Shown: in pieces, positions 17,909 through 43,518 of the stretch
Layout: every line of letters begins with the position of its first letter
Position numbering within the stretch: position 1 is the stretch's first letter
Assembly (NCBI GenBank): GCA_947471035.1
Contig: CANIWJ010000019.1
Span: forward strand, 1-43,518
DNA: 43,518 nucleotides
Direction: 5' to 3'
From: Verrucomicrobiota bacterium
GTDB lineage: Bacteria; Verrucomicrobiota; Verrucomicrobiia; Opitutales; Opitutaceae
Program-made: the position numbers and the translations under genes
The notes under the pieces: model-generated
What the model saw: only the letters and a program-made list of their open reading frames with translations
What the model was told of the DNA's origin: nothing
Database searches by the model: none

Positions 17909-19335
17909 TCACCGAGGAAAGAAAACGATTGCTCCGTAGGGCGCGAGGGTGATTTCGCCGGAACAGGGGGTTTCCGAAGAGCAGATCGTGGCCGGTGCGG
18001 TCATGCAGAAGCGCGGTCTGCGCGTCGCGGCGGAAATTCAGGAAGAACCAGAACTCACGGCCGTCGGCGGCGACGCGGCGTTGCAGCGTAACCCCAGGAG
18101 GAAGGCTGCCGAGGGGCAGGAGTGGGCGCACGCCGTGTCGCCGCCGAAGCGCGGCCAGAAGCGCGGTGCGCAGACCCTGCCCGGAACGGGCCGCCTGATA
18201 GTAAACAAATCCGCGCCCGGCCGCGTTCACGGTGAGCGCGGGGTGGCCGGCGTAAAAATCATCGCCGTAGGTCGCGAGCACCTCGGTGCCTTCGAGATGG
18301 TTGATCTCGATTTTGGCGATGGCCTTGCACTAGCCACTGAGACCAAGCGCGTTGCCGGATTGGCAGACGAAGCGGTTGCTATCCTCCGGGTAAAGGTGGT
18401 CGAACTCTTCGCGGCGCAGTACGACGAGGCGACGCCAACCGGCGTCCATACCGCACGGGAAGACGAGATCATTCTCATCGACCCAACCGGAGAGCACGCC
18501 GGTGAGCAGAACGCCCCCGGACTCCACCCAGACGGTGAGTTTTTCCACGAAGCCGGGACGAAGCAGGTAGTGCTGCGGCAGGCAGAGCAAACGGTAGCGG
18601 CCGAGATCCGTAAGCGGCGAGGACGGATCGACGACGTCGCAGGGCACGGCGTTTTCCCAATGCTCGAGATAGAGAGATCTAGTTGCTCCCGTGGGTAGTG
18701 CGAGCGTCCGCGGCCGCCTTGGGCAACGATCTCGGATTGCATCCACCAGTTGTCCCAATCGAAACCGACCGCGACCTCGGCGAGGCCAAGGCTGCCCGCT
18801 ACCGGGCCGAGCTGCGCCAGGGCGGCGCTGGCGGATTGCACGTCGGCGAAGACGCGCGAGCCGGGGCCGCCGCTGTTTTCGATCACCGCGCCGTGAAATT
18901 TTTCCTCTCCGCCCCGGCCGGCGCGGCACTGGAAATAGAGGGCACCGTCGGCCCCGTGGGCGATGGACTGGAGCACGGTCAGGCGGTGGATGCCGGGGCG
19001 CTTGAGTTTGGGCACGTCCATTCATTTGGCGGAGCTGGGTGTTGTTTCCATCAACAGCCAGGGCTGGCCGGGCCGGAGGGCGCGGTGGCGAAAGGCGTCG
19101 CGAGGAAAACTATTTTGCCCGCCGCAGGCGGCCCGGGCAAAGGCGTCATCCACCAGGTGAAATCATAACGCCCTTCCTCAGGCTCGAGACTCGCCCAGCA
19201 GAAAAAAATCAAGGAAAGCACTCCGACGCCCGCATGCGGGAAATGATGGAAATCCTAGTCGACGACGTCAGGCGCGTGCAGGCAATGGTCTGGATTACAG
19301 TCGCAGCCATTAGGCAGACCGGGGAGACCCGGCAT
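17909..19335 (-). pseudogene. GH42 beta-galactosidase pseudogene (stops, frameshifts, internal deletion)
   Basis: Pieces of one GH42 gene can be read in order on the minus strand. From ATG 19335 comes NGCDCNPDHC (normally YNPDQW-like), then a TAG (19257-19255), then GVGVLSLIFFCWASLEP and EEGRYDFTWW from the first barrel strands, and FLATPFATAP. Most of the TIM barrel, including the acid/base NE region, is missing at a junction near 19100. The frame then shifts to RPGQPWLLMETTPSS (nucleophile Glu), a TGA (19024-19022) and MDVPKLKRPGIHRL, AHGADGALYFQCRAG, EKFHGAVIEN. Further frameshifts near 18675, 18315 and 17975 are needed to read CDVVDPSSPLTDLGRYRLL, TYGDDFYAGHPAL and ITLAPYGAIVFFPR up to the stop at 17911-17909. 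It cannot make a working enzyme. Confidence 0.85.
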
Positions 19336-31035: not shown

Positions 31036-33096
31036 TTAAAAGTCATTGGCCTGTCCCGAGTGACCAAGGCGGATGACGGCCACGCCGTTGGGTTCGAGGG
31101 TGAGCGAGCCGGAGACGGGTTGCTCGGTGATAAGGTCTTGTCCGCTGTGCGCCAGTGGGACGCCCACCGCCTGCTCGCCGTGGTTGATGTAGAAACGCAA
31201 GGTGTGCTCGGAGCCGCGTCGTTCGCTTACCTCGACACGCGGCACGGTGCACAGCGGCGCGGGCAACAGATTTTCGGAGGCCAAGTGCGCGGCAAGGCGT
31301 TCGATAATGAGCGGGCTGAAATAGGTGCCCACGTAATACACCCAGCCCTTGCCGTGACGGCGGCGAGTGATGGCGGCGGAGCCGGCGAGGTGGCGCGATT
31401 CCCAACGTGCCACGGTTTCGGTATCCGTATCGGGGAGGAGTTGCTCATACCAGGTCTCAGTGGTGACGGCCGCGCCCGTGAAACGCAGCGCGAGCGGACG
31501 CAGTTCCGGGCGATTTTGATGGCCGTATTCCTCTACGCTGGCACCGACGAGAGGTCGGAGCGCGCCGGGCAGGGTAGTCGCGACGACATTGTTGTTCATG
31601 TCCTTGCTGCCGGAACGAGCGCCGATCACGAGCACGCCGCCGGCCTCTACCCAGGCCTGCCATGCCGGCAGCCACGCTGAATCGATCATCGCGAAGTGCG
31701 TGAGAAAAAACACGGAGACGCCCGCGAGAGTGTCCGTCGGATGGAGGCAGCCCACCGCGTGACCGGCACGATAGAAGTAGTTATGCACGGTCTCCGCGAC
31801 GTTGCGCGGGGAGGGCAAACCGAGGGTGAGCGGCAGATGGGCGGACTGGGTTTCAAAGTGGGCTCCGGCGACCGCGATGCGCACGGTAACGGCAGTGCCG
31901 AGAATGGCGGCGCCAATGCGCTGCAGCTCGGCACCGAGTTGCGCGGCTTCGCGGTAGCGGCGGCGGGGGACGTTGTCGTGATCGAGCACGCCGATCCAGT
32001 ATTCCTCTGCGCCGAAGCGGCAGGTTCGTTCACGGAAAAGGAGCATGCCGTCGGCTCCGCGGGCGATATTCACGTAAGCCCACTTGCGCATCTCGCCGGG
32101 TTCGGGCGTATCTAGCAGGTATTGGTTTTGTCCGCCAGGGCCGCATTGCTGTTCCATCACGACGAAGTTCCCGGAGTAGGCGCGGACGTAATCGGTGTTG
32201 AAGGCCTGATTCGCCGGGCGGGTGCGCCAATCAAAGTCGAAAAGCGGATACGAATCGTAGCTGAGAAAATCTAGGTCGCGAGTAAAGTCGCCCGCGAAAT
32301 CAATGTGGCTGAAACAGCCGTTGTGCGTGATCCACCAAGCGGGGTTCGCGGCGCGAAGAATCTCCACCTGGTCGCGTTGAAAAACTGTTACGCCGTGCGA
32401 AAGAAACCGGTAGTAATCGAGGCTGTGTGCCGGGTTGGGATGCGTGGGCTGCCCGCCGCGTGGGGTGGGCACATGCTCAAAGGCGTCGTAGGTCTGACCC
32501 CAAAACGCAGTGCCCCAGGTGCGGTTGAGTTGGGCTATTTCACCACCAAAGCGGGCGCGAAGGAACTCGACCCAAGCGGCGTGCGCGGCAGGGGAATGAT
32601 CTTCGGAAAAGTGGCAGTGAAACTCGTTATCGGTCTGCCAGCCGATGACGTGGGGGTTGCCCGCATAGTGCGCGGACAGGGCTCGGGTGATGCGGCGGCT
32701 GTGCGTACGAAAAACGTCGCTGAAGTGGCTGGCGTGCTGGCGGGAGCCGTGTTTTTGCACGACACCCTGGGCATCCACCCGCAGCACCTCGGGATAGCGC
32801 AGCGTCAGCCAGCGCGGCGGCGTGGCGGTAGGTGTGCAAAAAATCGTGCGAATGCCCACCGCTCCGAAACGGGCAATGGTTTCGTCGAAGAGCGAGAAAT
32901 CGAAACGTCCTTCCGTGGGTTCAAGACGATCCCACGCAAACTCGCCCATGCGAATCACGTTCCAGCCTGCGGCATGAAACAGCTCCGGATCGGTGGTGCG
33001 AGTGGGGGCGTCCCAATGCTCGGGATAATACGCGGAGCCGTAGAGGAATTCTTTAAGAGGTAGAGGACGGAGGTGAGTGAGACCAGGAATGATCAT
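31036..33096 (-). CDS. GH42 beta-galactosidase (intact)
   Basis: The 686-residue protein has all GH42 parts. The barrel has YGSAYYPEHW, IRMGEFAWDRLEPTEGRFDF, IFCTPTATPPRWL, IGWQTDNEFHCHF (acid/base E158), NPAWWITHNG and FVVMEQQCGPGGQNQ (nucleophile E315). A trimerisation domain (about 400-620; GVLVIGARSGSKD) and a small C-terminal beta domain (EPNGVAVIRLGH) follow. There is no signal peptide. It is the first gene of the minus-strand cluster and the intact counterpart of the pseudogene at 17909-19335, though the two are clearly different GH42 subgroups (YYPEHW versus a YNPDQW-like start). Confidence 0.93.
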   Translation of the reverse strand: MIIPGLTHLRPLPLKEFLYGSAYYPEHWDAPTRTTDPELFHAAGWNVIRMGEFAWDRLEPTEGRFDFSLFDETIARFGAVGIRTIFCTPTATPPRWLTLRYPEVLRVDAQGVVQKHGSRQHASHFSDVFRTHSRRITRALSAHYAGNPHVIGWQTDNEFHCHFSEDHSPAAHAAWVEFLRARFGGEIAQLNRTWGTAFWGQTYDAFEHVPTPRGGQPTHPNPAHSLDYYRFLSHGVTVFQRDQVEILRAANPAWWITHNGCFSHIDFAGDFTRDLDFLSYDSYPLFDFDWRTRPANQAFNTDYVRAYSGNFVVMEQQCGPGGQNQYLLDTPEPGEMRKWAYVNIARGADGMLLFRERTCRFGAEEYWIGVLDHDNVPRRRYREAAQLGAELQRIGAAILGTAVTVRIAVAGAHFETQSAHLPLTLGLPSPRNVAETVHNYFYRAGHAVGCLHPTDTLAGVSVFFLTHFAMIDSAWLPAWQAWVEAGGVLVIGARSGSKDMNNNVVATTLPGALRPLVGASVEEYGHQNRPELRPLALRFTGAAVTTETWYEQLLPDTDTETVARWESRHLAGSAAITRRRHGKGWVYYVGTYFSPLIIERLAAHLASENLLPAPLCTVPRVEVSERRGSEHTLRFYINHGEQAVGVPLAHSGQDLITEQPVSGSLTLEPNGVAVIRLGHSGQANDF

Positions 33097-33453: not shown

Positions 33454-34509
33454 ATGCCCACTATTCATCGCCGACGCGCATCTACGACCGCTACAAATTC
33501 CATGCCCGAACAGGACAGATTCGCGCAAATTGGTGCCATGCGTCAGGTCGAACGCGAGACCGTGTTACAGGAAATTGGCCCGCCCAAACTTCCTAAACGC
33601 ATTATGCCGTCGCTTAAGGTCGGCAACACCCACCGATTCACCCCACGCAAGCGTCTCACCATTGGAAAAGACGTCGAATCAGCCATCGATGCCGAGCGCA
33701 GGAAAATGGCTCCTTACCTTAAAACCCTGGCTCCCTCGCTACCTGGTTTTCGCCAACACCAGGATCTGCGCGCCTTCGACTGGCGTCTAAAAACCGAGCA
33801 GGACGACGCGGAATTCGCAGCCGTAGAACGGGGAGATGGAGCATGGGATAAAGTAACCATCCCTCATTACGGCCCCCCGCCGGACGCGCCACCGCCTTTT
33901 ACCGCACGGAGTTTACCATCGACGAATCCATGCTGGCGCCGGGTTCACTTTGGCTACGGGTCGAGGGAGCCGACTATATCGCCCGAGTGTATGTCAACGG
34001 CCGTTGCCTCGGTCAACCGCTCCTCCCTTATTTTAGCAGATGCGTGGCCCGCCAAGGACGTGGATCAAAGACGCCTGCTCGCCAGAGTAGCGGCGGGGGC
34101 CACCTTGGTTTTGAACGAATTGAAACCCGGCACCCACTCCATTTTGACCGATACACTGGAGATAAAACCCTGCGGCTTCACTACACTCGACTTTGCCTTC
34201 CGCGCCACCGGCCACGTTTTGGTGGCTGACTTCGCGCCCGACGATTTTCGCTACTGGCACGATCCCGCGTGCAACCTCATCACGCCGTTGCTTCCTGCAA
34301 CCTTTCAAGCGCCCCGCTGGACGCCCATTCTGGTCAGAGGCGAAGCCGGTTGGGGCGCGACGCCGCGCCCGGCTCTCGCCGCCGCCGAAAAATCTCACGG
34401 CAAGGGCCGCATTATAGTCTCACTTATATCGCTAGCCGGTCGAACAACCACCAACCCGGCGGCCAGGCACTTTGCCCAACGACTACTCAATCACACCATG
34501 TGCAAATAG
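33454..34509 (+). pseudogene. GH2-type glycosidase pseudogene with frameshift and large internal deletion
   Basis: The uninterrupted frame hides a broken gene. The N-terminal part (MRQVERETVLQEIGPPKLPKR, LRAFDWRLKTEQDD, WDKVTIPHYG) leads into a GH2 sugar-binding domain that continues only in another frame after about 33885: FYRTEFTIDESMLAPGSLWL and YIARVYVNGRCLG. After a junction near 34015-34040 the original frame resumes with a C-terminal piece (LLARVAAGATLVLNELKPG, FRYWHDPACNLITPLL, KGRIIVSLISLAGRTTTNPAA). The GH2 immunoglobulin-like domain and the whole catalytic barrel with both Glu residues are missing. An intact GH2 of this type would be expected to be about 900-1,000 residues; 351 codons remain. 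Confidence 0.75.
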
Positions 34510-34789: not shown

Positions 34790-37700
34790 ATGTTGTACCC
34801 CCTTCGTCGTTTGCGCTGCTGCAGTGTCGTATTGGCCTGTCTCCACTCATTGGCACCTGCCATGACGATCACTGGCTACACCGCTGCGGCCAGCGATCGC
34901 TGGGCAGCCAATCCGACCAACCCACTCACCGGCCCGTTCACGCCCAACACCAACGCTGCTTTTATAGGGCTGAACCACGATTTGAGCGGCGTCGGCTGGC
35001 AATCCAGCAACACGTCCAGTTGGCAGGACTTGTCCGTCACGCTCCTTAGTCCCATGCATTTCGCAGCCGCGAAGCATGTTACATTCGGCTACACCAATAC
35101 GACCTACACATTTCAAAACACCGATGGCACGCTCGTCAGCCGGACCATTGGCAACACCCTGAATTCCTCTGACGTCGGAGGGGTATCGGCTGACAGCCGG
35201 GTGATTCGCTTAGACGCACCGTTTGCCAGCACCGACAAAGTCAAGGTCTATCGCCTGCTCGACACCGGCGCCTACTCAAATTTAGCCGGGAAAAACGCAA
35301 TACTCTACGGCCACGCCAACTCAGCTGGAGCCAACTATCAGCGGCGGCTCGGCCTCGGTGTCGTCAGCCTCACAAGCAACAACCTGATCTACACGGCGCA
35401 AAACAGCTCGCTGACTAATTACGTGACGATCTTGGTTTCGGGGGATTCCGGCAGCCCCTCATTCGTCGTTTACAACGGGGAACTGCACCTCCTCGGCACC
35501 CACTACGCGAACGGCGGCGGCTACAGCCAGGACAACAACTTCTCCTACAATACCATCTATGTTAACACCAACGCATTCCTGGCCACCGACGGATTCGCCC
35601 TGCGTTGGACCATAGACACCACCAACGCACGCACTTGGACTGGTGCCACCGATGGCACCTTCGGCTCGGCGGACAACTGGGTTTCCCTAAACCAACCTTC
35701 CGAGTTTACCTCCGCCGCCTTCGACGGTGCCACCACCAGCAATCGCAGCATCACACTCGGCTCCGCAGCCACCGTGCGCGGAATGTTATTCAAATCCGCC
35801 TCCGGCACCAACCCGTTCACTTTGTCCGGCTCAACGCTAACCCTCCTCGAAAGCGGTATTCGTAACGAAGACACTGATACACTCACCATCAACAACCCCA
35901 TCACCCTCGGCGGATCCCAGAATTGGGAGGCGCAGAACGGTCCCATCACCCTCGGCGGCAACATCGCCACCGCTGGTTTCCTCGTCGTCATGAGCGGCGC
36001 ACAACCCATCACCCTCGCAGGTAACCTCACCGGCACCGGCAGTGTCGCGTGGGACAACCCCGGCACCTTCACGCCAGCCAGCGGACAGCTCGGCTTTACC
36101 ACCGGAAAACTTTTTGTCCGCCGGGGCGTTGTTAACCTGACCACCGCCAACGCCTACTCCGGCGGGACCGTCGTCACCGGCGGCACTCTGCTCGCCAATA
36201 ACTCCAGCGGTTCCGCGACCGGCAGCGGCTCCTTAACCCTCTCAAACGACGCCCGCCTCGGCGGCAACGGCACCGTAACCGGCGCAGTCACGCTTCAAAA
36301 CACCAGCGGCCTGCTCGCCAACCTCACCACCGCCCCCGGCTCGCACGATAAACTCGACATCACTGGTGCCCTCGCCCTCGGCAGCACCGGCACGTTGACC
36401 ATAACCGCCACTGCGGGTGCCACTACCGGCACCTACACGATCGTCACTGCCACCGGTGGCATAACGGGAGGGTTGCCTACACTAACCCTGCCCTCCGGCT
36501 GGAGCGCCACCGCGCAGATCTCAGGCAATAACCTCAATCTCGTCGTCACTTCCCTGAGTCCTACGGCTCCGGTCATCGCGAGCAGCCAAGCAACCGCTGC
36601 GACGATTAACACCTCTTTTTCCTACCCGATCACCGCAACCCAGAACCCCACTGGTTTCGCGTTTGTAGGTGGCACTTTACCGCCCGGCCTCACCTTAAAC
36701 ACGACCACCGGTGTCATCAGCGGCACGCCCACATCGTTGGGCAGTTACAACCCCAGCTTTACTGCAACCAACGCGATCGGCACCTCGTCCACCGCCATTG
36801 TCACCATCGCCATTAACAGCGCGCCCACGCTCCTCACCGGTTCCGTCATCGGCACCGCCGGTTCCTACAACAACGGCAGCGCCACCGTGGACAAAATCTT
36901 CGACGGCAACTTCACCACCTTCTTCGATGCCCCCACCGCCAACGGCAACTGGGCCGGGCTCGATTTCGGAGCAGGCAACGAAAAGATCCTCACCGAAGTC
37001 CGCTACGCCCCCCGTAGCACCCTCGAAAGCCGCATCCTCAACGCCATCATCCAAGGCTCCAGCTCAGCCGATTTTACCACCGGCGTGGTCAACTTATACA
37101 CCATTACCGCGACCCCTACGGCCGGCGTGCTCACTGCCCAGTCCATCTCCAATTCCACCAGCTTCCGCTACGCTCGTATCCTGCTCGCCAATGGCTCCTA
37201 CGGCAATGTCGCTGAGCTCCAGTTTTACGGTCACAGCCTTCCTGTGTTACCTTCCGCGCCTTCCACGCTCTCGGCCACTGCAACGTCCTCCAGTCAAATC
37301 AGCCTGACCTGGACGGACAACGCCACCAACGAAACCGGCTTCAAACTCGAACGCAGCTCCGACGGCACCACGGGGTGGACCCAAATCGCCACCCCCGTTG
37401 CCAACGCCACCACTGCCGCCGACACAGGACTGGCAACTGGAACAACCTCCTACTATCGCCTTCGCGCTACCAACGCCTACGGCGACTCAGCCTACTCAAA
37501 TACCGCCTCCACCGCCACCTGGAGCGCAGCGCAAAGCTGGCGCCAAACTTGGTTTGGCGACATCGCCAACTCCGGCAACTCCACCGACTCCGCCGACCCC
37601 GATGGCGACGGTCTGACCAACGCCCAGGAATACCTCGCCGCCTCCGACCCCCTCCTTCCCAACGCTCCCGGATCCGCCCCCGCCACCACACTCCCCGCCC

Positions 37701-40012
37701 GCCTCGTCACCCTCGTTCCCGCCGCCGACGCCACCGCAGAAGCCAGCAACCCCACGGTAAACTCCTTCACCGGCGACCTCCTCGTCCGTAGCGAATCCGC
37801 CATCCGCGAGGCCTTCCTGCGCTACGATCTCACCGCTCTCAGCGGCACCGTCGAACGCGCCCAGCTCGTCTTCTGGCCAACCGCCGCCGATAGCCAGACG
37901 CCTACCTTCACCATCGAGCAAGTCGTCGATGCCGGCGACGCTTGGACGGAATCCGCACTCACATGGAACAATAAACCCGCCTCTCTCCCCGCCACCGCAG
38001 TCAGCTTTACCGGCCCGCTCGCCTCAGGCGTTCCGCGCGTGCTGGATGTCACCGCCATGGTAACCGACACCCTGGCCAACGACGTCGCCAAACAACTCGG
38101 CCTCCGCCTTTACGCCACCGGCTCTATGCCCACCCAGGCATCTAGTTTTGGGAGTAAGGAAAACAGCGGCACCTACCGTTACCCTTACCTCCACATCACC
38201 CTGCGCGCCTCCGCCTCCACCCCGCTCAAACTCATGCACGTCGGCGACTCGATCACTCGAGGCGGCACCGGCGGCATAGGCTCCAACACCTTCTCCAACG
38301 CGGGTGTTCGTTATTACCTGCACAACCTTCTGCTTTCCCAAGGCCTCGACTTCCGCGCCGTAGGCCCGCGCACCGACGGCACCATCGCTACCTTCCGTCT
38401 CGGCACCGATGGCAGCGCCAACTCCTCTCTCGCCGACCGTCCGCTCTTATTCCCCGCCAACGCTGGCTACAGCGGCCAGACCATCGAATACATCCGCGAC
38501 AACATCGGCGCCTGGATAGGCACCTACACCCCCGACGTCATCACCCTGATGATCGGCACCAACAACATCGGCTACACCACCACTCCCGTGGCCGCCACCC
38601 CCACCGAAATCAACAACTGGAAGTCCCGCTACTCCACCCTGCTCGACAACATCCTCGCGGCCAGTTCCACGGTGAAAGTCGCCATGACCACCATTCCGCC
38701 CGCCGGCGGCATCAACATCGCCTGCAACTCCACCCGCATCGACCCCTTCAACGCCCAGGTCATCCAGGCGCTCTTTGCCCAATACTCCGCCACCAACCCC
38801 GGTCGCTTCTTCTTTGTGAATAGCAACGCCGCGCTCTCCACGGCGGATATCGGTGCCGATGGCGTTCACCCGAGCAGCCTCGGCCACCAAAAACTCGCAC
38901 GCGCCTGGCATGCCGGAATTATGGCCGCCCTTGGCCGCACCGAGGAAACTCGCTTCGTCAACGAATTCGCCGGAGCCGACGCCCCCCTGCGCGGCGGTAC
39001 GCTCGCCGCCACCGCTCTCGGCACCGTCACCACTCCACTACTCCCAACCTGGACCAACACCCTCCTCCGCGCCAAAGCTGACCCCGCCGCCGATAACCGC
39101 GCCAAGCCGCTCCTGAAATTCGACCTCGCCGGGCTACCCACCCACATCAACACCGCCACCCTCGGCTTGGCCTATCACGGTGCCACTCCCACCGGAGACC
39201 TCCCCGTAGCCACGACACTGCTTCACCTCTACGGCATCAAAGACGGCGCTGACATCTGGACCAAAGCCGCTGTCACCTGGAACTCGGCCCCCGGGCACGA
39301 TTCGACCAATAACGGCGTGCTCCCAAGCAACGTCGTTTATCTCGCCTCCACCACGATCCCCACCGGCACGCGCACCGGCGACCTCGTTACCTTCTCCTCC
39401 ACCGCCCTAGCCGATTTCCTTACCACCCAGGTCGGCTCCGACGACTTGGCCTCGTTCGTAGTTGTCGCCAGCGGACGCCAAAGCACCGAGGTCCTTCTGC
39501 ACGCCTCAAACCTCACTGACTACCAACCACCCTTCCTCCTGATCACCGAAACACCCGTCACCGCCCTCGCCACCTTCCGCACCACCTACGGCCTCGCCGC
39601 CAACGGCTCGCAAGACACTGCCACCCCCGCCGCCGACGGCGTGCCCAATCTGCTCAAATACGCTTTCAACATGCTCGGCACCGGCACCGGCCAGGCCTCC
39701 ACCCTTGCCACCCCCAACGCCGCCGTCCTCGCCCCCTCCGGTTCCGCCGGCCTGCCCTTCGCCTCGATCGGCACCGGCACCGCCGCCGACAAACTCCAGC
39801 TCACCTTCATCCGTCGCAAAGCTTCCGCCTCCCCCGTCCCCGGCATCACCTACTCCGTCGAGTTTACTGATGACTTCGCCACTTGGGCGGTAAACCCCTC
39901 CGCCACCGAATCGACCACTTCCCTCGACGCCACTTACGAACGCGTCACCACCACCGACTCCGTCGCCGCACCCACCCGCCGCTTCGCACGCATCAAAGTC
40001 GCCACACCATGA
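34790..40012 (+). CDS. Giant secreted protein: trypsin-like protease + PATR + putative Ig + SGNH esterase + DNRLRE-like domains
   Basis: The 1740-residue protein has a signal peptide (to about A24). Residues about 25-270 look like a trypsin-fold domain: FAAAKHVTF with H96, DSRVIRLDAPF with D135 and SGDSGSP with S220 form a plausible triad. Then come a PATR passenger-type repeat (about 450-500), a putative Ig domain (about 592-680; LPPGLTLNTTTGVISGTP), a discoidin-like domain (about 685-815), Fn3 (about 816-907), a calcium-loop segment (DPDGDGLTNAQEY), a DNRLRE/CBM96-like domain (about 970-1142), an SGNH hydrolase (about 1145-1380; GDSIT with S1154, GTNN with N1258, DGVHP with D1357/H1360), a second DNRLRE-like domain (about 1384-1582) and a C-terminal beta domain common in Verrucomicrobiota. 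No outer-membrane barrel or sortase motif is seen. It overlaps the next gene by four bases. Confidence 0.85.
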   Translation: MLYPLRRLRCCSVVLACLHSLAPAMTITGYTAAASDRWAANPTNPLTGPFTPNTNAAFIGLNHDLSGVGWQSSNTSSWQDLSVTLLSPMHFAAAKHVTFGYTNTTYTFQNTDGTLVSRTIGNTLNSSDVGGVSADSRVIRLDAPFASTDKVKVYRLLDTGAYSNLAGKNAILYGHANSAGANYQRRLGLGVVSLTSNNLIYTAQNSSLTNYVTILVSGDSGSPSFVVYNGELHLLGTHYANGGGYSQDNNFSYNTIYVNTNAFLATDGFALRWTIDTTNARTWTGATDGTFGSADNWVSLNQPSEFTSAAFDGATTSNRSITLGSAATVRGMLFKSASGTNPFTLSGSTLTLLESGIRNEDTDTLTINNPITLGGSQNWEAQNGPITLGGNIATAGFLVVMSGAQPITLAGNLTGTGSVAWDNPGTFTPASGQLGFTTGKLFVRRGVVNLTTANAYSGGTVVTGGTLLANNSSGSATGSGSLTLSNDARLGGNGTVTGAVTLQNTSGLLANLTTAPGSHDKLDITGALALGSTGTLTITATAGATTGTYTIVTATGGITGGLPTLTLPSGWSATAQISGNNLNLVVTSLSPTAPVIASSQATAATINTSFSYPITATQNPTGFAFVGGTLPPGLTLNTTTGVISGTPTSLGSYNPSFTATNAIGTSSTAIVTIAINSAPTLLTGSVIGTAGSYNNGSATVDKIFDGNFTTFFDAPTANGNWAGLDFGAGNEKILTEVRYAPRSTLESRILNAIIQGSSSADFTTGVVNLYTITATPTAGVLTAQSISNSTSFRYARILLANGSYGNVAELQFYGHSLPVLPSAPSTLSATATSSSQISLTWTDNATNETGFKLERSSDGTTGWTQIATPVANATTAADTGLATGTTSYYRLRATNAYGDSAYSNTASTATWSAAQSWRQTWFGDIANSGNSTDSADPDGDGLTNAQEYLAASDPLLPNAPGSAPATTLPARLVTLVPAADATAEASNPTVNSFTGDLLVRSESAIREAFLRYDLTALSGTVERAQLVFWPTAADSQTPTFTIEQVVDAGDAWTESALTWNNKPASLPATAVSFTGPLASGVPRVLDVTAMVTDTLANDVAKQLGLRLYATGSMPTQASSFGSKENSGTYRYPYLHITLRASASTPLKLMHVGDSITRGGTGGIGSNTFSNAGVRYYLHNLLLSQGLDFRAVGPRTDGTIATFRLGTDGSANSSLADRPLLFPANAGYSGQTIEYIRDNIGAWIGTYTPDVITLMIGTNNIGYTTTPVAATPTEINNWKSRYSTLLDNILAASSTVKVAMTTIPPAGGINIACNSTRIDPFNAQVIQALFAQYSATNPGRFFFVNSNAALSTADIGADGVHPSSLGHQKLARAWHAGIMAALGRTEETRFVNEFAGADAPLRGGTLAATALGTVTTPLLPTWTNTLLRAKADPAADNRAKPLLKFDLAGLPTHINTATLGLAYHGATPTGDLPVATTLLHLYGIKDGADIWTKAAVTWNSAPGHDSTNNGVLPSNVVYLASTTIPTGTRTGDLVTFSSTALADFLTTQVGSDDLASFVVVASGRQSTEVLLHASNLTDYQPPFLLITETPVTALATFRTTYGLAANGSQDTATPAADGVPNLLKYAFNMLGTGTGQASTLATPNAAVLAPSGSAGLPFASIGTGTAADKLQLTFIRRKASASPVPGITYSVEFTDDFATWAVNPSATESTTSLDATYERVTTTDSVAAPTRRFARIKVATP

Positions 40013-43000
40013 AACCAGCCTCCTTTCGCCTTCTACTCCTCGGTCTGCTCGCATTTGTCAGCGCTCCGCTCCGCGCTCAGGTCGGCATAGCCCAGGAAAC
40101 CCTCGGCGTCAGTACCGTCATCCAGGTCAGCCCGCCGCAGATCACCCTGAGTTGGATGGCCGACGCCAATACCAACCTCAGCACCACCGGCCACAGCATC
40201 TTCCGGCGCAACCCCGCCACGGATCGCAATGCCCTCTTCTCGACCGACGGCCTCACCTGGACTCCCGCGACCGGCGCTCCTGAACCCGGCCTCAAAAGCG
40301 TGGCCCACGGCACACCCTCCAGCGTTTCGACCTTTGTCGCCATTTCCGACGACACCGCCGTCTATCGCTCCACCGATGGCTCCACCTGGACTCGCACCGC
40401 CTTCGTGGATGACACCGGCGACACCCCCAACGTTATCGCCTACGGCAACAGCCGTTACATCACCAACATCGGAGGCTACTTCTTCAGCTCCACCGATGGC
40501 ACCGCATGGACCAAATCCACCCGCTACGCCACATTGGCAAATTTCCCTGTCATCATCAACGACCTCACTTTTGCCAATGGCACCTGGGTCGCCGTCGGAC
40601 GCGGCTACGGTGCGGGGGATTTACCCAATGCAGAAGGTCAAGACACCGGCCTCCGCATGGGCATCATCACCTCCACCAACGGCACATCCTGGACCCTGCA
40701 AAAAGAAAACGACACCACCACCGCGCCCGGAAACCCAAACATCGGCCGCACCCTGCAAGGCGTCGCTTTCGGCAACGGTGTCTGGATCAGCGTTGGCCTC
40801 GGCGGCAACATCTATCGCTCGACCGACAATGGCACCACTTGGACCTCTATTGCCAACAGCATCACCAGCGGCTCCAGCACGATTACCCACCTCTACAGCG
40901 TAGCATACAACGCAGGAACCTTCGTCGCCGTCGGCACCAGCCCCAACTCCACCAACGGCACACCCGTCATCCTCCGCTCCACCGACGACGGCCTCACCTG
41001 GTCCAACGTCAGCCTCGGCGGCAGTCCCGCCACCCGCCAGACTCTCAACCGCATCCGAGTCAACGGCGGCCAATTCCACGCCCTCGGCGACGGTGGCGCC
41101 TACATCGTTTCCAACGACGGCCTCACCTGGACCGCCCGCACCACCACGAACACTTCCCCCCAGAAAGACATCGCCTTCGACTCCACGCTCCAAGTCATCG
41201 CCAGCCAGCCCGGCTGGGGCATTACCCCGCTCATCTCCGGCCTCTCGCCCACCACATTTACCTTTGCCGATAACACCGTCCAGACCGGCATCGCCTACGA
41301 CTATATGGTGCGTCGCCACACCCTTGGCGGCGGCACCGGCGGCTTTAAACTCGAACCCATCACCGCCTCGATCCTCCTGCCCGTGGTCGAGCAGCGCGGC
41401 ACCGTCGTCCTCGTCGTCGAAAACACCCTTCCCACCACCCTCGCCTCCGACTACGCCACCTTCCGCAACGACCTCGTGGGCGACGGGTGGACGGTCGAGG
41501 AAATCCTCGTCCCCCGCGCCCTCACCAGCCCCGACGCCACCCAGCGCCTCAACGAGGTCCAGACCATCCGCAGTGCCATCCAGACCCTATACCAAGCCGA
41601 TCCCACTGGCGTGAAAACCGTCCTGCTCATCGGTCGCGTGCCCATCCCCATCTCCGGCAACATCGCTCCCGACGGCCATGCCGGACGCCCCTTCCCCGCC
41701 GATGTGTATTACGGCGATATGACCGGCACCTGGACCGATACCTCCAGTGCCCCCGGCTACACCCCGGGCGACGGGAAGTTCGATAATACCGTCCCGCCCG
41801 TCATCCCCCGGCTCGCCGTCGGACGCATCGATTTCGGCAACATGCCCGCCTTCTCCCTCACCGAGACCCAACTCATCCAACGCTACTTTCAAAAAAACCA
41901 CCGCTTCCGCCACGGCGTCACCACCGTCAACCGCAAGGCCTATGTCGCTAACAACTGGGGAAGCAGTCCGACCAATGTCGTTTTCTTTGACTACACCGCC
42001 CTCCCTTTCCTGCTCAGTGGCTCAGCGATCTTTGGTTTCGCGAACCTGACCTATTCCTACAATGGCAACAACTGGCGCAACGCCCACAATGCCAATAGCT
42101 ACTTAATGAGTTTCGGTGCCGGTGCCGGCAGCAACACCACTTGCGATGGCATCGTCACCACCACCGATTTCACCACTAATAATTACCCGACCATCTTCAT
42201 GTCATTTTACGGTAGTTATTTTTGCGAATATAACCTCTCCAATAACCTGCTCCGCGCCTCAATCGGCATGCCCGATTACGGGCTGACCGCCCAATGGGGA
42301 GGGGTCATTCCGTCGAATGCCGGGATCAATGTGCCCATCGGCCAAAACAATCGCCTGGCTTACGCCAAAAGCAGGGATAACCCGTTCAATGTAATCCTAG
42401 ATTACAAGATGGGTATCTACGATGCCCTCATCGGAGATGCCACCCTGCGTTTCTTCCCCACCAAACCGGCCAGCAACCTCACCCTCAGTGCCTCCAGCGG
42501 ACAGATCGCCCTCAACTGGAGCGCCTCGGCCGATACAAACATCGTCGGCTACCACGTCTATCGCGCCACCAGTCTCAACGGCCCCTTCAACCGCCTCACC
42601 GGCACTACTGTCTCCACGGCCAATCCCACCGGCTCCGCCATCACCGGCACCAGCTTTACCGACACCACCATCGCGCCCGCCACGGTTTACCATTACCAGG
42701 TGCGCGCCGTGAAACTGGAGACCACCAATCAAAGCACCCACTACACCCTCAGCCAGGGCGTCTTCGCCACCAACCAGATTCCCGTCATCACCCCCGGCCA
42801 GTCCGTTTCCGCCCCCACCGACACCGCCTTGAGCTACACCCTCGGAACCAGCAACGGGCCCACCAGCTACACCCTCGCCTCCGGCAGCCTGCCCCCCGGA
42901 CTCACCCTCAACTCCACCACCGGCGTCATCAGCGGCACACCCACCACACCCGGCATTTACTCCCCCTCCTTCACCGCCACCAACGGCGGCGGCACCTCAA

Positions 43001-43518
43001 GCGCCGTCTCGATGTCCTTCACCATCATCAGCGCCGCCCTCATCATCCACGAGCCGTTCAACTACACCGTCGGCTCCAACAGCCCCGACCCCGACGGCGG
43101 TGCCAACTCCACCAACGGCCTACCCGCCACCAACATCGGCGGCAACCCGTCCGGCACCGGCACCGGCTTTTACGGTAACTACGGCACCACTCTCGATGTC
43201 GCCTCCGGCCTGACCTACGCGCAGGGCAGCAAATCCCTCGTCACCTCGGGCGGCTCGGGTGCACCCAACAACGCCACCTGGGGCACTGCCGTTTCCGTCT
43301 ACCGGAACATGACCACCGACCCTTACCTCGCTCGCCGCGTGGGTAATCTCACCACGGGTAACCTCGGCGTGGATGGCGATACCCTCTACCTCTCCTTCAT
43401 TGCCCGCAGTTCCAGCACCACCAGCCGCGCCTTCTGGCTCTGTTTCGCCAACAGCAGCGGCCGCAACATCTACGTTGGTAATACCGCCACCACCTGGTCT
43501 ATCGAGGATAACGCCGCC
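40009..43518 (+). CDS. Giant secreted protein: BNR-like propeller + gingipain (C25)-like domain + Fn3 + putative Ig + LamG-like (partial)
   Basis: ATG 40009 overlaps the previous stop (ATGA). 1170 codons are open to the window end, so the C-terminus is missing. A signal peptide (MKPASFRLLLLGLLAFVSAPLRAQ) precedes a propeller-like region (about 75-390) with repeated STDG-x-TWT and GVWISVG-type strands, as in BNR/YCF48 repeats. Residues about 460-810 resemble the caspase-like fold of peptidase C25: GTVVLVVENTLPTTLASDY, VKTVLLIGRVPIPISG, PADVYYGDMTGTW, PRLAVGRIDF. The segment expected to hold the catalytic GHG reads FGAGAGSNTTC, and the next reads FMSFYGSYFCEYN, so the His is not where expected. 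Then come Fn3 (about 820-917), putative Ig (about 926-1005) and a LamG-like start (HEPFNYTVGS onward). Confidence 0.8.
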   Translation, partial: MKPASFRLLLLGLLAFVSAPLRAQVGIAQETLGVSTVIQVSPPQITLSWMADANTNLSTTGHSIFRRNPATDRNALFSTDGLTWTPATGAPEPGLKSVAHGTPSSVSTFVAISDDTAVYRSTDGSTWTRTAFVDDTGDTPNVIAYGNSRYITNIGGYFFSSTDGTAWTKSTRYATLANFPVIINDLTFANGTWVAVGRGYGAGDLPNAEGQDTGLRMGIITSTNGTSWTLQKENDTTTAPGNPNIGRTLQGVAFGNGVWISVGLGGNIYRSTDNGTTWTSIANSITSGSSTITHLYSVAYNAGTFVAVGTSPNSTNGTPVILRSTDDGLTWSNVSLGGSPATRQTLNRIRVNGGQFHALGDGGAYIVSNDGLTWTARTTTNTSPQKDIAFDSTLQVIASQPGWGITPLISGLSPTTFTFADNTVQTGIAYDYMVRRHTLGGGTGGFKLEPITASILLPVVEQRGTVVLVVENTLPTTLASDYATFRNDLVGDGWTVEEILVPRALTSPDATQRLNEVQTIRSAIQTLYQADPTGVKTVLLIGRVPIPISGNIAPDGHAGRPFPADVYYGDMTGTWTDTSSAPGYTPGDGKFDNTVPPVIPRLAVGRIDFGNMPAFSLTETQLIQRYFQKNHRFRHGVTTVNRKAYVANNWGSSPTNVVFFDYTALPFLLSGSAIFGFANLTYSYNGNNWRNAHNANSYLMSFGAGAGSNTTCDGIVTTTDFTTNNYPTIFMSFYGSYFCEYNLSNNLLRASIGMPDYGLTAQWGGVIPSNAGINVPIGQNNRLAYAKSRDNPFNVILDYKMGIYDALIGDATLRFFPTKPASNLTLSASSGQIALNWSASADTNIVGYHVYRATSLNGPFNRLTGTTVSTANPTGSAITGTSFTDTTIAPATVYHYQVRAVKLETTNQSTHYTLSQGVFATNQIPVITPGQSVSAPTDTALSYTLGTSNGPTSYTLASGSLPPGLTLNSTTGVISGTPTTPGIYSPSFTATNGGGTSSAVSMSFTIISAALIIHEPFNYTVGSNSPDPDGGANSTNGLPATNIGGNPSGTGTGFYGNYGTTLDVASGLTYAQGSKSLVTSGGSGAPNNATWGTAVSVYRNMTTDPYLARRVGNLTTGNLGVDGDTLYLSFIARSSSTTSRAFWLCFANSSGRNIYVGNTATTWSIEDNAA

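Follow-up and report, generated by a model that had tools for sequence, protein, structure and literature searches.

A giant secreted protein of a Verrucomicrobiota bacterium combining a trypsin-like domain, a CE3-like SGNH domain and putative sugar-binding modules

The locus and its genes

The window, i.e. the whole stretch of 43,518 nucleotides analysed here, corresponds to contig C19 of the genome, which measures 3.64 Mb and has an estimated completeness of 92.34% and contamination of 6.58%; given this estimated contamination of the bin, the owner of the contig is not beyond doubt. Positions 34790–40012 of the plus strand hold one open reading frame of 1740 amino acids without interruption, encoding a predicted secreted multimodular protein whose module order recurs almost unchanged in a protein from a pond metagenome. 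The start of the chain (residues 1–24, 34790–34861, plus strand) is likely to be a signal peptide: by eye, the N-terminus MLYPLRRLRCCSVVLACLHSLAPA/MTITGY features a basic n-region and a hydrophobic core leading to APA/MTITGY, with probable cleavage before M25, and relatives present the sequences PAHA/ITI, PARA/ITI and PVEA/ITI at the equivalent place.

Downstream, the start codon of a second giant gene (40009–43518, plus strand, truncated at the contig end) overlaps the stop codon of the first (ATGA at 40009), so that the two genes probably form one operon. The open frame of this partner encodes DUF6242/BNR-like repeats and, later, a He_PIG domain (Pfam; DUF6242 and He_PIG both above cut-off), and residues 405–1148 of its product align at 32% with a PhoD-carrying giant encoded on another contig of the genome (C62, locus L026). 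A gingipain-type peptidase, an idea formed by eye for this downstream gene, found no support in Pfam at E≤0.1 or in a search of the PDB.

Upstream lie glycosidase genes of types GH95, MGH1, GH42, GH43 (with NPCBM) and melibiase, all on the minus strand, from which the giant gene is divergent and to whose operon it does not belong. The nearest model for the melibiase-type neighbour is a beta-L-arabinopyranosidase (131.8 bits, far below the cut-off of 1100), and another neighbour displays a weak likeness to arabinofuranosidases (16.8 bits for a cut-off of 625). Besides a full GH42 gene at 31036–33096, a short, remnant-like GH42 piece at 18227–19021 matches only positions 309–375 of the 376 in the family model. 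The open frame of 351 aa that separates the glycosidase genes from the giant one (33454–34509) matches no family; its product looks, by eye, like a glycosidase with an internal shortening. Promoter-like sites numbered 0 for 1.9 expected, and terminator-like sites 7 for 7.5 expected.

Two predicted catalytic domains

The N-terminal part of the mature chain (residues 25–276, 34862–35617, plus strand) was originally predicted to carry a trypsin-type triad, at positions that proved to be right: H96 (35075–35077), D135 (35192–35194) and S220 (35447–35449), found in the motifs AAAKH, SADSRVIRL and GDSGSP, respectively. Searched as an isolated stretch, residues 25–276 score 24.4 bits with Pfam Trypsin, above the required 20.6 (E 3e-5), a match that does not appear at E≤1 when the whole 1740-aa protein is the query. 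In the PDB, a profile of 29 family members matched 409 entries at E≤10, with V8 protease at the head (E 1.3e-6); to judge from their names, the best 60 of these 409 sequences are all chymotrypsin-fold peptidases. The profile columns of H96, D135 and S220 fall on the His, Asp and Ser of the V8 protease triad. All 29 rows of the corresponding alignment keep H96 and S220, while D135 belongs to the class conserved at 90% or more. A wider alignment of 37 rows has H in 35 rows at the first position (one E, one gap), D in 33 at the second (two E, two gaps) and S in 36 at the third (one gap); the sole E at H96 stems from a row read out of frame (L035), and both E at D135 from one and the same pond protein, present as L009 and L027. 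At E≤0.1, Pfam detects Trypsin in 8, Trypsin_2 in 5 and Peptidase_S6 in 3 of the 29 members. An AlphaFold model of residues 25–280, built from two sequences only, reached a pLDDT of 30.7 and was discarded, so that the fold is predicted from sequence profiles and the triad geometry from alignment.

This evidence supports the assignment of residues 25–276 as an S1-type chymotrypsin-fold domain with a His-Asp-Ser triad, predicted to be a peptidase. With known chymotrypsin-fold serine peptidases (S1, V8 protease being the best match) it shares the ordered His-Asp-Ser residues, the GDSGSP motif and a Trypsin match above cut-off; it differs in belonging to a divergent Verrucomicrobiota set, whose members often have a stalk and, at the C-terminus, a tail domain. 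We know of no activity for any member of this family.

The second predicted enzyme occupies residues 1141–1385 (38210–38944, plus strand). The proposed SGNH triad was also correctly placed, with S1154 in the motif GDSITRG and D1357 and H1360 in DGVHP, and the region scores 46.6 bits with Pfam Lipase_GDSL (cut-off 23.6). Its best solved relatives are the carbohydrate esterase family 3 (CE3) structure 2vpt (E 2.9e-11), followed by 5b5s/5b5l. The SGNH blocks are the Ser of GDS, a Gly, an Asn and DxxH, and S1154, G1229, N1258, D1357 and H1360 align with 2vpt so as to fill them. The structural check suggested for this active site succeeded in part. An AlphaFold model of residues 1141–1740 has a mean pLDDT of 41.7, with ten-residue blocks of the SGNH part ranging from 29 to 83 and usable in parts only, the second CBM96 domain below 40 and the C-terminal domain at 25–59. 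Foldseek with this SGNH model, of low to moderate confidence, returned 2vpt first (E 1.3e-7), and VIA-align superposed the same low-to-moderate-confidence model on 2vpt with Z 14.8 and 3.4 Å over 182 residues. Fold neighbours include PatB and OatA. Sequence and model together support an SGNH esterase nearest to CE3, predicted to be acetyl-esterase-like. The domain shares the SGNH blocks and its best sequence and fold match with CE3 enzymes (2vpt from Clostridium thermocellum, 5b5s from Talaromyces cellulolyticus); it is set apart from them by an identity of 26–27% to 2vpt and by its location between two CBM96 domains.

Accessory modules, recurrence and mosaic structure

The protease domain is followed by a stalk (residues 277–590, 35618–36559, plus strand) that is 74–86% identical in the four closest relatives. 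The PATR region originally predicted here is matched weakly in the window protein (16.3 bits, below the cut-off of 27), and surpasses the cut-off in 2 of 10 relatives scanned. In autotransporters of the IgA-protease type (Peptidase_S6), an N-terminal trypsin-fold protease likewise precedes a PATR-type stalk, and the Peptidase_S6 matches of 3 of the 29 protease-family members, all weak, agree with this likeness. The window protein differs from such autotransporters in that no family of C-terminal autotransporter barrels matches at E≤1, its last ~150 residues forming a small domain common to other giants.

Next come a putative Ig domain, recovered as predicted (He_PIG, residues 591–676, 36560–36817, plus strand; 45.3 bits, cut-off 24), and the domain previously described as discoidin-like (residues 678–815, 36821–37234, plus strand). 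The latter is present and is better named a CBM62-type module: 69 of the 135 residues from 681 to 815 are identical to PDB 2yb7, a Clostridium thermocellum module (E 1.8e-40), and it also matches the C-terminal module of 5g56 (E 2e-41 for the whole chain). We take both entries to be CtXyl5A. As in that enzyme, the module adjoins an Fn3 domain; here, it is part of a protease-esterase chain rather than of an arabinoxylanase, and the order is CBM62-Fn3 rather than Fn3-CBM62. The molecule in 2yb7 is called “carbohydrate binding family 6” in the PDB, and the CBM62 label is taken from the module order given in PMC5063996, where the CBM62 of CtXyl5A is described as binding D-galactopyranose and L-arabinopyranose.

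The Fn3 domain itself (residues 818–910, 37241–37519, plus strand) finds Fn3 matches in the PDB, with a Pfam score of 22.7 bits just under the cut-off of 25. It is followed by a TSP3-like linker that the original prediction had not listed (residues 911–970, 37520–37699, plus strand; Pfam TSP3_bac 15.4 bits, below the cut-off of 25), for which the pond relative reaches 25.4 bits. The two DNRLRE-like domains that had been proposed were both found, and correspond to CBM96: CBM96 (Pfam, 71.7 bits) and DNRLRE (NCBIfam, 88.6 bits) each match two stretches above cut-off. The best stretch is in the first domain (residues 971–1139, 37700–38206, plus strand); the second (residues 1386–1585, 38945–39544, plus strand), whose bounds were set by us, is 73.5% identical to its counterpart in the pond relative. 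A characterised CBM96 is reported to bind alginate, and DNRLRE domains to occur in other polysaccharide-degrading enzymes as well (PMC9971899).

The chain ends with a domain of about 150 residues (1588–1740, 39551–40009, plus strand) that the original prediction had missed and for which neither Pfam nor NCBIfam offers a model at E≤1. The genome encodes 12 further near-full-length copies of it (at least 131 residues matched, 62–82% identical, also detected by blastp), one of them at a contig edge, and three partial copies besides. Nine giants with this domain were scanned, one being cut at the locus end and one reaching a contig end: a GH9 domain was found in one, pectate-lyase-like domains in three, PhoD in one and a sortilin/BNR-type domain in one, and these nine also carry He_PIG, Fn3 and discoidin-type modules. 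By analogy, the domain may serve in sorting or surface attachment, comparable to a PEP-CTERM tail. The window protein has no PEP-CTERM match in Pfam and ends with FARIKVATP; a PEP-CTERM-like tail, detected with a simple pattern, ends 17 of the 50 distinct complete members of the protease family. One locus encodes a short secreted trypsin-like form (L020, 4746–5627, a frame of 294 aa) with a PEP-CTERM-like tail by eye.

Scanned with a three-member profile, GTDB contigs produced 33 pattern matches along with a single relative, on contig JAIYAZ010000003.1 of the pond metagenome-assembled genome Verrucomicrobiaceae bacterium E1_MAG_00022 (L009; G354), which represents another family of the same class. 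Its product consists of protease, stalk, He_PIG, Fn3, TSP3, CBM96, SGNH, CBM96, Fn3 and C-terminal domain, in that order; a LamG-like stretch (our label, without a Pfam match) replaces CBM62, an extra Fn3 precedes the C-terminal domain, and Glu stands at the position of the protease D135. The 612-aa cassette CBM96-SGNH-CBM96 is 73% identical between the two proteins. The possibility that the fusion is an assembly artefact was rejected, since recurrence of nearly the same module order in a genome of another family argues against an assembly accident. The suggested search for this architecture in other genomes thus returned a second case; at E≤1e-20 the cassette was detected in 2 of 387 genomes sampled across the phylum (the own genome and the pond one) and in 1 of 235 relatives (the own genome only). 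The pond relative, too, has carbohydrate genes next to it (L009, 848–5204), which encode a GDSL esterase that stands alone, a GHL6/fucosidase-like protein and a sugar kinase of the FGGY type. Among plasmid records, no relative of the whole chain was found, and three records match the SGNH part only, at ~30% identity.

The protease domain is far more widespread. Counting the own genome, and with the reservation that the weakest matches may be general trypsin-like proteins, the three-member protease profile (E≤0.001) detected it in 4 of 57 relatives and 30 of 387 phylum genomes, and the 29-member profile (E≤1e-5) in 99 of 384 genomes of the class. The own genome has three close copies, that of the window included, and a fourth, distant one. 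The fetched loci yielded 96 open frame entries, corresponding to 62 distinct domains and, at E<1e-20, to 50 distinct complete members, only 2 of which, the window and pond proteins, carry an SGNH domain, as found with a local profile of three sequences and again with a motif check. The two activities are therefore not generally linked; 9 further distinct members, cut by a locus or contig end, fall outside the 50, and more fusions could exist. Literature searches in a limited collection, partly at the level of titles and the first lines of abstracts, retrieved no report of a protease-esterase fusion with CBMs. The protein is a rare combination of parts of known type, and a clear mosaic.

This mosaic character is evident from the nearest relative of each part. 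Protease and stalk are 88% and 86% identical, respectively, to an esterase-free protein of genome G007, the nearest among the giants compared. The CBM62 module is 81% identical to that of a giant of the own genome that lacks a protease, against 53% in the protease paralogue on contig C54. The cassette modules are 70–76% identical to those of the pond protein, and the C-terminal domain is 82% identical to that of a giant on contig C9. A tree of the first ~565 residues, with 7 rows and 2 of its 4 inner branches left open, joins the window and G007 proteins (support 100/100) and places the pond protein outside. A history with a single gain of the fusion was considered and is not simply supported, as the protease half of the window protein groups with the esterase-free one; G007 may have lost the esterase, or the cassette may have been transferred. 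Module shuffling among giants would explain the pattern best, to judge from these comparisons, and unequal rates of change among modules could add to it. With 88%, 81%, 70–76% and 82% identity to four different proteins, the gene would clearly exemplify how domains are shuffled in giant genes of bacteria.

Proposed role and alternatives

We propose, with a probability of roughly 0.55, that the protein is a secreted, glycan-anchored enzyme attacking protein-containing material of the galactan or arabinogalactan type. The signal peptide would export it, and the C-terminal domain may direct it to the outer surface or keep it there. The CBM62-type module and the two CBM96 domains would, by the binding known for their relatives, hold the enzyme on plant or algal wall material that is acidic or bears galactose or L-arabinopyranose. 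There, the N-terminal trypsin-like domain would cut the protein part of the wall material, and the CE3-like SGNH domain may strip O-acetyl groups and so make the chains accessible to the glycosidases of the neighbouring genes. The gene itself would have been assembled by module shuffling among the giant secreted proteins of the lineage.

The neighbouring glycosidase genes together with the CBM62-type module favour arabinogalactan-type material, perhaps glycoproteins, as the substrate. The dual enzyme against arabinogalactan proteins that was originally envisaged is strengthened by the support for both catalytic domains, by the CBM62-type module and by the glycosidase neighbours, and weakened by the divergent orientation of the gene, by the Glu of the pond protein and by the occurrence of SGNH in only 2 of 50 family members; arabinogalactan proteins are a reasonable inference as the target. 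Several observations run against a galactan substrate in particular: the gene is divergent from the glycosidase genes and overlaps the downstream gene instead, the solved relatives of the esterase are named acetyl esterase or acetyl xylan esterase, and the characterised CBM96 binds alginate (PMC9971899).

Peptidases with CBMs have been described as a way to aim proteases at glycoproteins, with 141 MEROPS entries, S01A included, and with 4 S01A members carrying CBM32 and 14 carrying CBM5_12 in the tables (PMC3267712). The M60-like peptidases of that study, and further ones that carry CBM32 or CBM5/12, are proposed to act against glycoproteins and resemble the window protein, a predicted secreted peptidase with sugar-binding modules; unlike it, they have no esterase partner in the main text of that study, and their CBM families differ from CBM62 and CBM96 (PMC3267712).

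Of the alternatives, the one that survives best, although we consider it rather improbable, is that the trypsin-like domain is a processing protease trimming its own chain or other surface giants, and that contact with the polysaccharide is left to the esterase and the sugar-binding modules. The trypsin-like domain is widespread in the class (detected at E≤1e-5 in 99 of 384 genomes, with the own one and weak matches counted), a PEP-CTERM-like tail ends 17 of 50 distinct complete members by the simple pattern, no other enzyme domain was found in 10 members scanned (Pfam, E≤0.001), and three close copies and a distant one coexist in a genome with many giant secreted proteins. Short secreted forms of 294 aa, however, fit a general extracellular protease equally well.

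It is less likely still that activity is limited to one of the two catalytic domains, and that module shuffling has brought the other along as a conserved remnant with a binding role. In the pond homologue, Glu replaces the catalytic Asp, which may lower activity, and the nearest protease relative, G007, is without the esterase, indicating that the domains do not strictly travel together; the window protein, on the other hand, keeps the active-site residues of both. Least likely, and in our opinion improbable, is deacetylation and trimming of the cell's own exopolysaccharide or surface matrix, a role in keeping with the PEP-CTERM tails of protease-domain relatives, with the reported association of PEP-CTERM sorting signals with exopolysaccharide genes (PMC1569441) and with the modification of bacterial polysaccharides by SGNH domains such as the fold neighbours PatB and OatA, but at odds with a window protein that lacks a PEP-CTERM match, has a CBM62-type module and adjoins glycosidase genes.

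Returning to the attack on protein-containing wall material, a bolder form of this proposal can be put forward only tentatively: a truly bifunctional serine protease and carbohydrate acetyl esterase, which CBM62 and CBM96 would direct to galactan or arabinogalactan linked to protein, and which would have arisen by recombination within a shared module kit that yields new giants with a common C-terminal sorting domain. The C-terminal domain, which recurs in the genome and has no counterpart in Pfam or NCBIfam, offers a candidate sorting signal of this lineage that can be put to the test. If the proposal is true, attack on protein and on carbohydrate esters by a single chain would help to account for the way in which free-living Verrucomicrobiota open up plant or algal walls that contain protein, for instance those with arabinogalactan proteins.
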